From positions 1-64,000 of the forward strand of contig JAJDXM010000073.1 of the NCBI GenBank assembly GCA_022823225.1: DNA of 64,000 bases, read 5' to 3'. The stretch is from Gemmatimonadota bacterium (GTDB lineage Bacteria; Gemmatimonadota; Gemmatimonadetes; Longimicrobiales; Gaopeijiaceae). A model generated the notes under the pieces. The model was not told the origin of the DNA. It did not search any database and saw nothing but the letters and a program-made list of their open reading frames with translations. This document shows, one piece after another, positions 37,434 through 42,792 of this stretch (position 1 is its first letter; every line of letters begins with the position of its first letter). The position numbers and the translations under genes were made by a program.

Positions 37434-39344
37434 ATGTGCGGCATTGCAGCGATCCTGTCCCATGACGGACCCGTCGACGCGTGGGCGGTGCGCCGCGCCA
37501 CCCGTGCGCTGCGGCATCGTGGGCCGGACGCGGAGCGCACCTGGGTTTCGCCGAGCGGCAGGATCGCCCTGGGCCATCGGCTCCTGGTGATCAACGACCC
37601 CGACGGCCACCAGCCGATCGCGAGCGAGGACGGGCGGCTCCACATCATCGTCAACGGCCAGTTCTACGACTTCAAGCGCATCCGGGCCGAGCTCGAGGCG
37701 AAGGGGCACCGCTTCCGCACCCGCTCCGACAGCGAGATCGCGCTCCACCTCTACGAGGAACACGGCGCCGGCTGCCTGGAACACCTGCGCGGCCAGTTCG
37801 CCTTCGTGATCTGGGACGAGGAGGCCGGCACGCTCTTCGCGGCGCGCGACCGCTTCGGCCTCAAGCCGCTCTTCTACGCGAAACACACCGGCGCGCTGTA
37901 CCTCGCGTCCGAGGCGAAGGCGCTCTTCGCGGCGGGCGTGCCCAGGGAGTGGGACGCGCGCGGCGTGTATCACTGGCTGACTGCGTGTCCGGACGAGCGG
38001 CGGTCGCTCTTCCACCGCATTCGGCAGGTGCCGCCGGGGCATTTGATGCGGGCGCGAAATGGGGCGGTGCGGCTGGAGCGGTACTGGGACCTGCAGGCTT
38101 CTCCGGGCGGGCGGCGGCCCCGTTCCCACACCCTCACCTTCCCCCAGGCCGTGGACCAGGCCCGCGAACTCACCGAGGAGGCGATCCGCCAGCGCATGGT
38201 CGCCGGGGTCCCCGTCGGCTGCCTGATCAGTGGCGGGCTCGATTCGTCGTCGGTCCTGGCGGTGGCGGCAACCTGCACGGACGGCCCGGTCGCCGCCTTC
38301 ACGGTCGGGTTCGAACGGCGCGAGTTCGACGAGAGCCCGGGCGCACGAGAAGCCGCCGCCGCTGCGAACGCCGACCACACCGTCGTCACCCTCGGCGACG
38401 CCGATCTGGCCGACCACTTCGCAGACGCCGTCTGGCACGCCGAGACGCTTCAGTTCAACACCCACGGCGCGGCCCGCTACCTGCTCAGCCGTGGCGTGCG
38501 CGAGGCCGGCTACCGCTCGGTGCTGGCAGGCGAGGGCGCCGACGAAGCGTTCTTCGGCTACGAGTTCCTGCGCATGGCGGCCGGTGCCACCCGCGACCGG
38601 TTCGGACCCTGGAAGGTGCTGCTGCGGTTCCTGACGGGACTGCTGCGCTCGCCCCGCCGCCACCACCCCACGCTGCACGCCGTCTCCCCCTGGCTTGCCC
38701 GTTTCGCGCTTCTCCTCCCCACGGCCCCCTCGCTCTTCACCCGGCTCTCGGGCGGCCTCGGCCTGATTCAGTCGGTCTGCACCCGCCGATTCCTGCATGC
38801 CTTCGACGACTATGACCCCTACCGCACCTACTATCGCCGCTGCAACGCGGCCGCCTCCATCTCCAGGCGCGAGCCCGCCCGGCAGCTCCTCTACCTCTGG
38901 CTGCACTCGATCTTCGCCAACTACCACATGGCCGCCGACCGGCTCGACATGGCGCACGGCGTCGAGGTCCGCCTCCCCTTCCTCGACCACCACCTCTTCG
39001 AGCACCTGAACCGCCTCCCGCTCGCTTTCCTCACCGGCCATCCCCGCGAAAAGCACCTCCTGCGCGAGGCCATGCGCCCCCACATCCCCGACGCGGTGTA
39101 CAACCGGGTGAAGCGCCCCTTCATGGCGCCGTCGGCGGTCGGCACGGGCGGGCCGCTGCACGACTTCCTGCAGGACACGCTGCGGGGCGACGGGCTGCGC
39201 GCCGTGCCGTTTGTCAAAACGGGGGCGGTGCGGGGGGTGCTGGACGGGCTGCCGAACCTCGCCGAGCGGGATCGCGGTTCGGTGGACTCGCTCCTGCTGA
39301 TGCTGGCGTCGGTGGCGGTGCTGCAGGAGCGGTGGGGGTTGTAG
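37434..39344 (+). CDS. asnB: Glutamine-hydrolysing asparagine synthetase
   Basis: 636 residues. Cys2 is the class II amidotransferase nucleophile (MCGIAA), with RHRGPD and HRLLVIND in the glutaminase half. The PP-loop SGGLDSSS at about 266-273 binds ATP in the synthetase half, and GEGADEAFFGYEF follows. It converts aspartate to asparagine using glutamine nitrogen. AGGAGG lies 6 bases before the ATG. Pairing with an HTTM protein is unusual; a peptide-modifying role is possible but unsupported. Confidence 0.92.
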   Translation: MCGIAAILSHDGPVDAWAVRRATRALRHRGPDAERTWVSPSGRIALGHRLLVINDPDGHQPIASEDGRLHIIVNGQFYDFKRIRAELEAKGHRFRTRSDSEIALHLYEEHGAGCLEHLRGQFAFVIWDEEAGTLFAARDRFGLKPLFYAKHTGALYLASEAKALFAAGVPREWDARGVYHWLTACPDERRSLFHRIRQVPPGHLMRARNGAVRLERYWDLQASPGGRRPRSHTLTFPQAVDQARELTEEAIRQRMVAGVPVGCLISGGLDSSSVLAVAATCTDGPVAAFTVGFERREFDESPGAREAAAAANADHTVVTLGDADLADHFADAVWHAETLQFNTHGAARYLLSRGVREAGYRSVLAGEGADEAFFGYEFLRMAAGATRDRFGPWKVLLRFLTGLLRSPRRHHPTLHAVSPWLARFALLLPTAPSLFTRLSGGLGLIQSVCTRRFLHAFDDYDPYRTYYRRCNAAASISRREPARQLLYLWLHSIFANYHMAADRLDMAHGVEVRLPFLDHHLFEHLNRLPLAFLTGHPREKHLLREAMRPHIPDAVYNRVKRPFMAPSAVGTGGPLHDFLQDTLRGDGLRAVPFVKTGAVRGVLDGLPNLAERDRGSVDSLLLMLASVAVLQERWGL

Positions 39345-39380
39345 GGGCGGCTCCGCCAGGTCGTAGCGGTCCTGCCAGCC

Positions 39381-39409
39381 TGTACAATTCAACGTAAGCA
39401 GCTTATGAT
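39381..39409 (+). promoter_or_regulatory. Promoter of the toxin-antitoxin pair, leaderless type
   Basis: TGTACA (39381-39386), 17-bp spacer, TATGAT (39404-39409). The antitoxin ATG is 7 bases after the -10 box, where transcription would start, and no Shine-Dalgarno sequence precedes it; a leaderless mRNA is likely. Confidence 0.55.
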
Positions 39410-39451
39410 AGCTACATGAACAGCGAAGTCCGAAGATACCTGGCCGAAATC
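39393..39451 (+). repeat. Dispersed repeat copy A: promoter and first codons of antitoxin
   Basis: 59 bp from CGTAAGC to CCGAAATC, matching 41631-41688 at about 80 percent with a single-base gap. Contains the -10 region and the first ~12 codons of the antitoxin gene. Confidence 0.8.
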
Positions 39452-39682
39452 GGTCGGCGAGGAGGCCGCAGGAGCCGTCGCACGCTGGATCCCGAGACCG
39501 CCCGGGCCATGGTCCGCGTGCGGGAGGCACGCCGAGCGTTTCGGAAGTTCCACTCCAGATGCTTCTGGTCCTACCGCAAGGATCTGGAAATCGGCGTTGG
39601 CGATGTGGAGTGGGTGGCCGAGACGCTGAAGAAGAACGGAGACATGAGGGCCTGGCGGATTGCGGGGCGACTGTGCCGCTGA
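39416..39682 (+). CDS. Antitoxin-like small protein of an AbiEii-type pair
   Basis: 88 residues, basic (EIGRRGGRRSRRTLDPETARAM), ending in a conserved-looking block YRKDLEIGVGDVEWVAETLKKNGDMRAWRIAGRLC often seen upstream of AbiEii-type nucleotidyltransferases. It overlaps the toxin start by 10 bp. Probably the antitoxin and perhaps autoregulator; by context. Confidence 0.75.
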   Translation: MNSEVRRYLAEIGRRGGRRSRRTLDPETARAMVRVREARRAFRKFHSRCFWSYRKDLEIGVGDVEWVAETLKKNGDMRAWRIAGRLCR

Positions 39683-40479
39683 CGGAGTTTCAGCACGAAC
39701 TGCTGGCGTTGCTCGCGCGCACCAGGGATTCCGACGGCTATCTGGCCGGGGGAACGGCTCTCCACTTCGCACCCACATCGCATCGCTTCAGCGACGACAT
39801 CGATTTCTTTCACGACTCCGTTGAGGCCGTCGCGGAGTCATTCGCACGAGACAGCCAGGCCCTGGAGGAAGCCGGCTACCACCTGGAGGTCCTCCTCAGC
39901 CAGCCCGGCCTCGTTCGGGCCAGCGTGCAGTCCGGTAACGAAGCAACGCGCGTCGACTGGGCTCACGATTCGGCATGGCGCTTCATGCCCCTGGTGCGCC
40001 ACGAGACGGGTGGCCTGTTGCTGCACGAGGTGGATCTCGCGATCAACAAGGTGCTCGCTCTGGCAGGTCGTGACGAGGCGAGGGACTTCGTGGACATCCT
40101 CTATGCGCACGAGCATGTCCTTCCGCTGGGCGCCATGGTCTGGGCGGCCGTCGGGAAGGACCCGGGGTTCACTCCAGCCTCGCTCCTCGAGCAGCTGAAG
40201 CGCCGAGGCCGCTACCAGCCGGAGGAAATCGACCGGTTGGCCCTGGCGGCACCCTTCAATCCCATTGAATCGAAGGACGCCTGGCGGAAAGCGCTCTCCT
40301 GCGCGGACGACTTCATCCGCAGCAGACCCCACGACGAAGTCGGTTGCCTGTACCACTCTCCGAGCCTCGACCGCTTTGCCGCTCCCTGCCCTGAGCCCTC
40401 ATTACAGGAACAGGGCCTGGTCGCCCACTTCGGGCAACCCGGGGGAATCCTGCCGAGGGTCGCGGAGGCCGGGGGCTAA
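39673..40479 (+). CDS. AbiEii-family nucleotidyltransferase toxin
   Basis: 268 residues. The polymerase-beta-like motif is YLAGGTALHFAPTSHRFSDDIDFF (GG-T then DxD), followed by a further conserved region HEVDLAINKVLALAGRDEARDFVDI. AbiEii toxins are thought to transfer nucleotides and stall growth, giving phage resistance with their antitoxin. A GTG start inside the antitoxin's end is chosen since it begins the domain. The C-terminal ~40 residues look unrelated to the family. Confidence 0.85.
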   Translation: MPLTEFQHELLALLARTRDSDGYLAGGTALHFAPTSHRFSDDIDFFHDSVEAVAESFARDSQALEEAGYHLEVLLSQPGLVRASVQSGNEATRVDWAHDSAWRFMPLVRHETGGLLLHEVDLAINKVLALAGRDEARDFVDILYAHEHVLPLGAMVWAAVGKDPGFTPASLLEQLKRRGRYQPEEIDRLALAAPFNPIESKDAWRKALSCADDFIRSRPHDEVGCLYHSPSLDRFAAPCPEPSLQEQGLVAHFGQPGGILPRVAEAGG

Positions 40480-40515
40480 GTGGCCGTGTTGCAGCAGCGG
40501 TGGGGGTGCAGCGGG

Positions 40516-41604
40516 TCAGAAGGATGGTGTGCGCGACGCGAGGGCCATTACAGTGGGGAACTCATCGTACGTGACCACGAACACCTGTCCCTGCGGTCCA
40601 ACGGACGCCGCCTTGGCGGCCATCGGCAGGATGAGCGAGTCCAGATAGGAGCCCGAGTGCATGTCGTATCGATCGATCAGCCGGGATCTCGCTCGTGTCC
40701 GTCCCATGAAAAGGACCGCCAGGGTGTCGCCCCTCACCGACAACGAATAGCCGGACGGGACTGTGCCCGGCGGAGGTTGGGTGGCGTTCGCCGGCAACAC
40801 GTCGGTGTGTTCCACGTAAGGTGACCCCAACGCGGACACCTCCCGATCGAAGGTGAACCAGCCGTTGGCAGTCTCAAATCCGAACGCCCACTGCTCATCC
40901 TTCCATTTCACAATCGATCCCGCCCGTTGGGGCACCGTGAAATCCGCCAATCCCTGAGGAGCGTCAGCCACTCCAATCTGCATCCCGGTGCTATCGACCA
41001 GTACCCACGGGTCAGATCCGCTGGTCTGCATGACATACGTGCCCGAAGACAGGACAACGACATCGAAGACCCAGCCGGCGTCAATGCGCAGCGGCACCTC
41101 CGCCACCAATCGTCCATCCCGATCAATTCTGACTATCCGGAGGTTCCCGGGGTCCACCAACAACACCCCCCCGTCCCTGTCCAGCGTCATGGCCATGGCC
41201 ACGCGGACCTCACCCGGCCCGCCTCCTTCTCGTCCCCACGACCATAGCAGGTGTCCGTCGGAATCGAGATGATGCACCTTGAACGATTTCGCATCTGCGA
41301 AAAACAGCCCCCCGCGACCATCCGGAACCAACGAATGCGCCGACGCAAGCAGGGTGTCGCCCGGGCCGCCGAACGTCCAGAGGGTGTCCCACTGATACCC
41401 GGCCAGCTGCCGTTCACCCTGACCTTCCGCAAAGATCGGCACCTGCCCATGCACCGTCTGCAGGACAGGGCCATGCAGCGCGAAGGCCGCAACGGCAACA
41501 CCGAAGAGGTGTCTCGGGCCGAGCGCGGCCGCTCTCATCGGCGCCGTTCCGTCAGTGGACGGCCCGGTCGAAATCCCTTCAGGATTTGCTGAAGAAACGA
41601 GCAT
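40516..41604 (-). CDS. 6-bladed beta-propeller secreted protein
   Basis: 362 residues. A signal-like region lies at about 23-53 (LFGVAVAAFALHGPVLQTVHGQ). Propeller repeats: SLVPDGRGGLFFADAKSFKVHHLDSDGHLLWSWGREGGGPGEV and MTLDRDGGVLLVDPGNLRIVRIDRDGRL. ATG 41604 has GGGGGTG upstream; ATG 41538 gives a more standard signal peptide but weaker binding site. Divergent from the 41.7 kb lipoprotein. Confidence 0.8.
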   Translation of the reverse strand: MLVSSANPEGISTGPSTDGTAPMRAAALGPRHLFGVAVAAFALHGPVLQTVHGQVPIFAEGQGERQLAGYQWDTLWTFGGPGDTLLASAHSLVPDGRGGLFFADAKSFKVHHLDSDGHLLWSWGREGGGPGEVRVAMAMTLDRDGGVLLVDPGNLRIVRIDRDGRLVAEVPLRIDAGWVFDVVVLSSGTYVMQTSGSDPWVLVDSTGMQIGVADAPQGLADFTVPQRAGSIVKWKDEQWAFGFETANGWFTFDREVSALGSPYVEHTDVLPANATQPPPGTVPSGYSLSVRGDTLAVLFMGRTRARSRLIDRYDMHSGSYLDSLILPMAAKAASVGPQGQVFVVTYDEFPTVMALASRTPSF

Positions 41605-41630
41605 ATCACCCCCACAATGGAACAGAACAC

Positions 41631-41688
41631 CGTAAGCTGCATAATATCACTACATGAACAGCGAAGTTCGAGGCACCTTGCCGAAATC
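41631..41688 (+). repeat. Dispersed repeat copy B: decayed antitoxin start used as leader
   Basis: 58 bp matching 39393-39451. The ATG and first six codons (MNSEVR) are conserved; a one-base deletion then shifts the frame. Confidence 0.8.
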
Positions 41689-41695
41689 CCCATGA
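41654..41695 (+). CDS. 13-codon leader ORF derived from antitoxin start
   Basis: Encodes MNSEVRGTLPKSP. It ends in a TGA overlapping the ATG of the following lipoprotein gene (ATGA), so translation could pass from leader to gene. The promoter-like AT-rich segment just upstream (CATAATAT) is retained from the repeat. Confidence 0.4.
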   Translation: MNSEVRGTLPKSP

Positions 41696-42792
41696 AGCGA
41701 CTCGCGATGTCCACCCTGACCGCCGCTGGTCTATCGGTCTGGACCGGCTGCGGCGAGGGTGCCCAACAGGTCCTCGAGATCGATTACGACGCCGGCCGAG
41801 TCGTGATCGACGACGAAATGCGCAGCATTCGCTGGGAATCGAGCATCGACCACGAACGGGGCATCGTGTATGTGCGCGACGACGAGGAGCCCGAAGGGAT
41901 CATGGCCTTCTCGCTCGAGACCGGCGAGTGGATCCGGACCTACATGGTGCCGACCGGAGACGGCCCGCAAGAGCTGAGCAGAGGGATCCACGGCCTCTCG
42001 GCCGCTTCGGGCGGCAGGCTGTATGTGGCCGGCGCACTCAAGGTCATCGAGTTCGGTCCGCAGGGGCAGTACCTCGGCAACTGGACCCCGCGAGTTCACC
42101 CCCGGGACGGTGCGGTATGCGACTTCGCCGGCCAGCCCGCGGTGCCGGCCCTGGGCGGCGTCGTCAGGCGAGGCGACGGTGGTGACGACGAGGCGATCGG
42201 GCCGAATGTGACCGGCGACTACGATCCCGACAGCTGGACGAACGACGACGGAATCGTCGAATGGCAGCTGTGGAAGTCGAAGATCGCGTGCACACCGAGC
42301 ACCGCCTTCGTGGTGTCGGAGTACGGTACAGACCTCGTGCCGTCGGAGTATGATGACGAATCGGATTCGGTCACGGTGTACTACCGCGAGAGCCGCCGGA
42401 AGGGCAGGCTGCTGATCCCCGAGGCGCTGGCGGCGGAGCAGGCGATTACCGGGGGACCGCTTGCGGCGACGGACGGGCGGGACAACCTCGTGCTCGTCGG
42501 CGTGGGCGCTATCCAGCTGGTAGGAACGTGGGGTGGCTTCCGAGTGACCGGCGCCGTCGTGGATCCCGCGAGCGGGTGCCACGCGACGATCCGCAACCCG
42601 AAAAGGAACATGATCGAGCGCAACCTGATCGGCATCTTCCGCGACAGTGCGGTGGTGGCGAACGAGTACTTTGAAGAGAGCGCCGAGGACGGATCCGTCC
42701 ACTTCTTCAACTACGCCCATCAGGTGGCCCTCTACCCGCTGCGCCGGGTAAGCGGCAAGCCGTGTGCGGGAATGCTGCCGTCCGTGGGTTAG
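41692..42792 (+). CDS. Putative lipoprotein, propeller-like
   Basis: 366 residues. Signal MKRLAMSTLTAAGLSVWTGC ends in a possible lipoprotein Cys. The rest has beta-propeller character (RSIRWESSIDHERGIVYVRDDEEPEGIMAFSLETGEWIRTYMVPTGDGPQEL) but the repeats are weak and it does not fit the other propellers closely. Start is set by the coupling with the leader ORF and the signal peptide. Confidence 0.75.
   Translation: MKRLAMSTLTAAGLSVWTGCGEGAQQVLEIDYDAGRVVIDDEMRSIRWESSIDHERGIVYVRDDEEPEGIMAFSLETGEWIRTYMVPTGDGPQELSRGIHGLSAASGGRLYVAGALKVIEFGPQGQYLGNWTPRVHPRDGAVCDFAGQPAVPALGGVVRRGDGGDDEAIGPNVTGDYDPDSWTNDDGIVEWQLWKSKIACTPSTAFVVSEYGTDLVPSEYDDESDSVTVYYRESRRKGRLLIPEALAAEQAITGGPLAATDGRDNLVLVGVGAIQLVGTWGGFRVTGAVVDPASGCHATIRNPKRNMIERNLIGIFRDSAVVANEYFEESAEDGSVHFFNYAHQVALYPLRRVSGKPCAGMLPSVG

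Follow-up and report, generated by a model that had tools for sequence, protein, structure and literature searches.

The segment at positions 41628-41688 of the window, the whole stretch of 64,000 nucleotides that was analysed, is a real and specific duplicate of the promoter and first codons of AT, a gene for an antitoxin-like protein that is paired with an AbiEii-type nucleotidyltransferase gene, TOX. This duplicate, termed AT', is most readily explained as what is left of a tandem duplication in a variable region, and a fortuitous capture of the promoter is possible. Taken together, it is probable that AT' is the eroded remnant of a local tandem duplication which included AT-TOX, that its operator is broken, and that expression downstream of it, if there is any, is fortuitous. 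The features of the region are as follows.

37434-39344, plus strand: asnB-like gene for an asparagine synthase (glutamine-hydrolysing), named from its translated sequence, the conserved upstream neighbour
39312-39339, plus strand: 3'-terminal segment of asnB, parent of the duplicate at 40480
39381-39415, plus strand: AT promoter with the -35 element TGTACA, a spacer of 17 nt, the -10 element TATGAT (39404-39409) and 6 nt to the ATG
39393-39407, unstranded: putative operator, a palindrome CRTAAGCNGCTTAYG (CGTAAGCAGCTTATG) that extends into the -10 element
39416-39682, plus strand: AT, gene for the antitoxin-like protein of 88 aa, in a pair with AbiEii
39676-40479, plus strand: TOX, AbiEii-type nucleotidyltransferase (DUF1814), its start overlapping the AT stop
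40480-40507, plus strand: second copy of the asnB 3' end (asnB tail'), adjoining the stop codon of TOX
40516-41604, minus strand: gene for an NHL/beta-propeller-like secreted protein, with weak NHL-type matches
41628-41688, plus strand: AT', remnant covering the AT promoter and codons 1-12 at 81% identity, one base being deleted
41631-41645, unstranded: degenerate version CGTAAGCTGCATAAT of the palindrome, matching at 12/15 positions, with a broken right half-site
41654-41695, plus strand: 13-codon ORF MNSEVRGTLPKSP, whose stop codon overlaps the ATG of the secreted-protein gene
41692-42792, plus strand: gene for a secreted protein of 366 aa, which belongs to an expanded family of paralogs and might be a lipoprotein, although its lipobox is poor

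Local alignment of 39390-39452 with 41628-41688 yielded 62 columns at 81% identity with one 1-base gap and 55.4 bits, corresponding to an E value of 1.4e-10 within the window and of 6.3e-9 in the whole 4.19-Mb genome. The initial annotation had described the copy of an antitoxin promoter and start at about 80% identity, which is real, and had proposed a search for further copies. This search identified 41628-41688 as the sole second copy in the whole genome and no third one, and the source is specifically the promoter and start of AT. With only two copies in the genome, a widespread promoter was ruled out. Similarly, two occurrences of TACATGAACAGCGAAGT were counted in the window, at a chance expectation of 0.03. 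In a comparison of 20 species, the best match of AT' was the AT of its own genome (alignment score of 62 versus at most 50 for the 19 other species), and a DNA search for parts of AT' elsewhere in 23 genomes of the genus returned matches only at true AT genes. Translation of ATGAACAGCGAAGTTCGAGGCACCTTGCCGAAATCCCCATGA gives MNSEVRGTLPKSP and a stop codon whose TGA overlaps the ATG at 41692, in agreement with the annotated one-base deletion that results in a 13-codon ORF stopping in ATGA. Without this deletion, the first codons of AT' would be in frame with the secreted-protein gene, because the frame directly upstream of its start reads HLAEIP-MKRL. Substitutions are found at 7 of the 26 bases of the promoter part and at 4 of the 35 aligned bases of the coding part, which also carries the gap; the difference is not significant (p=0.18), and thus there is no sign of the promoter being preferentially kept.

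AT was matched in 26 of the 98 genomes searched, its own included. Together with asnB and the AbiEii-type TOX it forms a conserved neighbourhood in the genus, the asnB-like gene (named from its own sequence) being syntenic upstream of AT in most members. TOX matches PF08843 above the cut-off (E 8.9e-10, on the longer ORF) and is classified as AbiEii by PADLOC. For AT no Pfam, NCBIfam or PADLOC family match worth naming was obtained, and we therefore infer the label 'antitoxin' from its place before AbiEii. The predicted structure of AT is all-helical at low confidence (pLDDT 69), and known DNA-binding folds were matched neither by sequence nor by a PDB fold search with this weak model. In several species AbiEii is damaged while AT and the palindrome are retained. 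In G022 (L080 4864-5673) the reading frame of AT runs on into AbiEii, which is present from residue 84 onwards and lacks its N-terminal part; AbiEii has an internal deletion in G021 (L069 4104-4330), and its N-terminal 42 residues are unmatched in G003 (L079 from 4308, reverse-complemented locus).

The natural promoter was defined from the 15 genomes of the genus with a complete AT. In these relatives it is conserved, mostly with a TGGACR-like -35 element (TGTACA in the genome studied here), a 17-bp spacer, TATGAT as -10 element and about 6 nt to the ATG, and it was the only promoter-like site scoring at least 9/12 in a scan of 39300-41800. As only about 6 nt lie between the -10 element and the ATG, transcription of AT probably starts at or beside the start codon; judged by this spacing, the promoter is probably leaderless. 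The palindrome CRTAAGCNGCTTAYG matches at 15/15 positions in all 15 members with a complete AT, and the perfect sequence has a single site in each of these 15 genomes, always before AT, and is absent from the rest of the 23 genomes. Such a single site suggests a dedicated operator at the putatively leaderless AT promoter, and the conserved palindrome at the -10 element is suggestive of AT repressing its own promoter through inverted repeats. A regulon built on this operator was rejected, given the one perfect site per genome and a number of 2-mismatch matches below that of the reversed control (15 versus 47).

In the copied palindrome the left half-site CGTAAGC is intact and the right half matches at 4/7 positions, the three changed bases all being invariant in the 14 other genomes. 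The -10 region, which the initial annotation had taken to be kept, is poorly preserved, as TATGAT became TAATAT. The AT' promoter reaches 13 bits on the family matrix versus 38-57 for natural promoters, and its elements, at about 7-8/12 to the consensus by eye, were undetected by the promoter scan. As the operator palindrome is broken in AT', cross-control of the secreted-protein gene by AT is unlikely. It had been proposed that an autoregulating antitoxin might also regulate the presumed lipoprotein gene through the copied site. The strong conservation and AT-specificity of the natural palindrome make autoregulation plausible, and one half-site of the copy did survive; however, the copy retains 12/15 positions with its three changes at genus-invariant bases, perfect sites are confined to one per genome, no such site exists at the orthologous gene in the related genome G008, and AT lacks a recognisable DNA-binding domain. 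A joint control of both genes by AT thus appears highly improbable.

The region harbours a second duplicated fragment, missed by the initial annotation, that accounts for where AT' came from: the asnB-tail relic at 40480-40507. It is identical to the genome's own asnB at 25/28 positions and to the asnB of G021 at 27/28; the sequence has only two sites in the genome, and shuffled versions of the window contained none. The order is asnB-AT-TOX, asnB tail', 1.1 kb with the reverse-strand NHL-like gene, the AT' start and the secreted-protein gene. Hence, further parts of the unit accompany AT', as would be expected of a tandem remnant: the asnB-AT junction is represented a second time by two pieces, asnB tail' (40480-40507) and AT' (41628-41688), which follow each other in matching order and strand between the AbiEii stop and the secreted-protein start. 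The presence of the asnB-tail relic beside the AbiEii stop, together with AT', indicates that AT' stems from a tandem duplication that has been eroded. Neither relic has further copies in the genome, and AT' is nearest to the AT of its own genome, as a local duplicate should be. AT' is displaced by 1070 bp relative to the spacing of a plain tandem duplicate. The NHL-like gene, for which no ortholog was found at the corresponding locus in relatives, seems to represent an insertion that separated asnB tail' from AT'. Differing genes are likewise inserted in the asnB-AT gap of G012, G019, G022 and G007 (L070, L078, L080 and L087), marking this gap as an insertion hotspot, and parts of TOX have been lost in several members of the genus.

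From this arrangement we infer duplication, insertion and deletion as the order of events. A unit of about 1168 bp, comprising the last ten asnB codons, AT and AbiEii (39312-40479), would have been tandemly duplicated; the NHL-like gene would then have entered the asnB-AT gap of the second copy, splitting it and adding about 1070 bp, and a deletion ending at the secreted-protein start codon would have removed TOX' completely and AT' except for its 5' end. The surviving fragment would be without a working operator, and expression of the downstream gene from this relic, if any, would be fortuitous and outside the control of AT. A complete second AT-TOX copy, which would represent the intermediate stage, was found in none of the genomes. 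Three further observations stand against duplication debris: with no more than 2 bp between the junction and the start of the secreted-protein gene, the deletion would be more precise than chance requires, and a usable leader may have been selected for; the downstream gene has stayed intact and is not accelerated, so that some promoter probably serves it; and the asnB-tail relic, with its 28 bp, is slightly closer to G021 asnB than to the local one.

The secreted-protein family is expanded, with 13 matches in the own genome, and an ordinary signal peptide with AQQ behind it seems to be present in most paralogs. An AT'-type leader was not seen in the upstream regions of paralogs that were examined. 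G008 is the only genome with an ortholog at the corresponding place (78-79% identical). Both proteins possess a cysteine at a poor lipobox; thus, the annotation as a lipoprotein is tentative. The dN/dS between the two orthologs is 0.34 (0.21 for asnB), and unique changes are not in excess in the gene studied here (17 versus 24 and 16 versus 25 by two outgroups). The gene is probably still used, as judged from these substitution patterns, and since it is intact and not accelerated, some promoter probably serves it. At the G008 ortholog, the only one available for this comparison, the homology extends to 2 nt ahead of the start codon, with unrelated DNA further upstream and no leader. A probable Phd/VapC-like pair, named from sequence, is located in G008 between AbiEii and the secreted-protein gene (L068 4791-5495), where it occupies the place of the NHL-like gene and the relics. 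No Shine-Dalgarno sequence precedes 41692, while the G008 ortholog has GAGG, which suggests that translation of the secreted protein may be coupled to the 13-codon ORF.

Thus, it might be speculated, albeit tentatively, that the duplicated leaderless promoter and first codons, freed from the operator and independent of AT, drive the secreted-protein gene, the 13-codon ORF handing ribosomes to the ATGA start. Such a capture is compatible with an origin by duplication, and the ATGA overlap, the difference in Shine-Dalgarno sequences, the close junction and the purifying selection on a gene that is not accelerated would all fit; AT-TOX likewise uses overlapping reading frames, and the activation of a horizontally acquired gene by tandem duplication provides an experimental precedent (PMC11111574). 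However, the promoter elements of AT' have decayed to a degree that the scan missed them, the promoter part is conserved no better than the coding part, and the leader occurs in one genome only and so provides no evidence for maintenance. A different origin, recombination with another strain's allele at the variable locus instead of tandem duplication within the lineage, is suggested by the G008 AT-TOX cassette (L068 3733-4809), whose identity of 77-78% compares with 88.6% for asnB and 84.7% for the PKD-type gene on its flanks. As the cassette is far more divergent than the flanks, cassette exchange probably occurs at this locus, and the similarity of the asnB-tail relic to G021 asnB points in the same direction. 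Nevertheless, AT' is closest to the AT of its own genome and the order and strand of the fragments are those of a tandem duplicate, and we consider such a recombination unlikely to have produced them.

With local tandem duplication as the preferred reading, the initial idea that the promoter and start of a toxin-antitoxin system were reused holds with respect to the specific origin from AT; reuse as a regulated promoter does not agree with the destroyed operator, the absence of the leader in G008 and the asnB-tail relic. A toxin-antitoxin promoter may, accordingly, come to precede an unrelated gene by duplication and decay, without regulatory intent. The more useful by-product is the palindrome, with a single site in each of 15 genomes, as a putative operator for an uncharacterised small AbiEii-paired protein.

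AbiE systems are type IV toxin-antitoxin systems organised as a two-gene operon with the antitoxin gene (AbiEi) first, AbiEii/DUF1814 second and inverted repeats at the promoter (PMC3985639). AT-TOX resembles them in having a gene in antitoxin position first, an AbiEii/DUF1814 nucleotidyltransferase gene second (PF08843, PADLOC AbiEii) and an inverted repeat at the promoter. However, AT is with 88 aa far shorter than AbiEi, and the winged helix-turn-helix and C-terminal antitoxin domain of AbiEi were not found in it by Pfam, PADLOC or PDB fold search, which argues that AT is not AbiEi. In addition, AT is preceded by one 15-bp palindrome overlapping the -10 element instead of long inverted repeats, and its transcript is probably leaderless, whereas transcription of abiE in S. 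agalactiae begins 26 bp upstream of the ATG (PMC3985639). MenAT1 of Mycobacterium tuberculosis is similar in that the gene for a nucleotidyltransferase toxin is preceded by that for a short antitoxin, 68 aa long, which has no DNA-binding domain (PMC10435456), but AT matches no solved structure by sequence or fold, and kinship would be hypothetical. With the terms used, no papers on solitary antitoxin remnants were found. Tandem duplication can place expression signals before a silent gene in bacteria (PMC11111574); AT' shares with these duplication-activated genes that signals would have been moved by duplication, and differs from them in that the duplicate is old and eroded and that any expression from it is putative.
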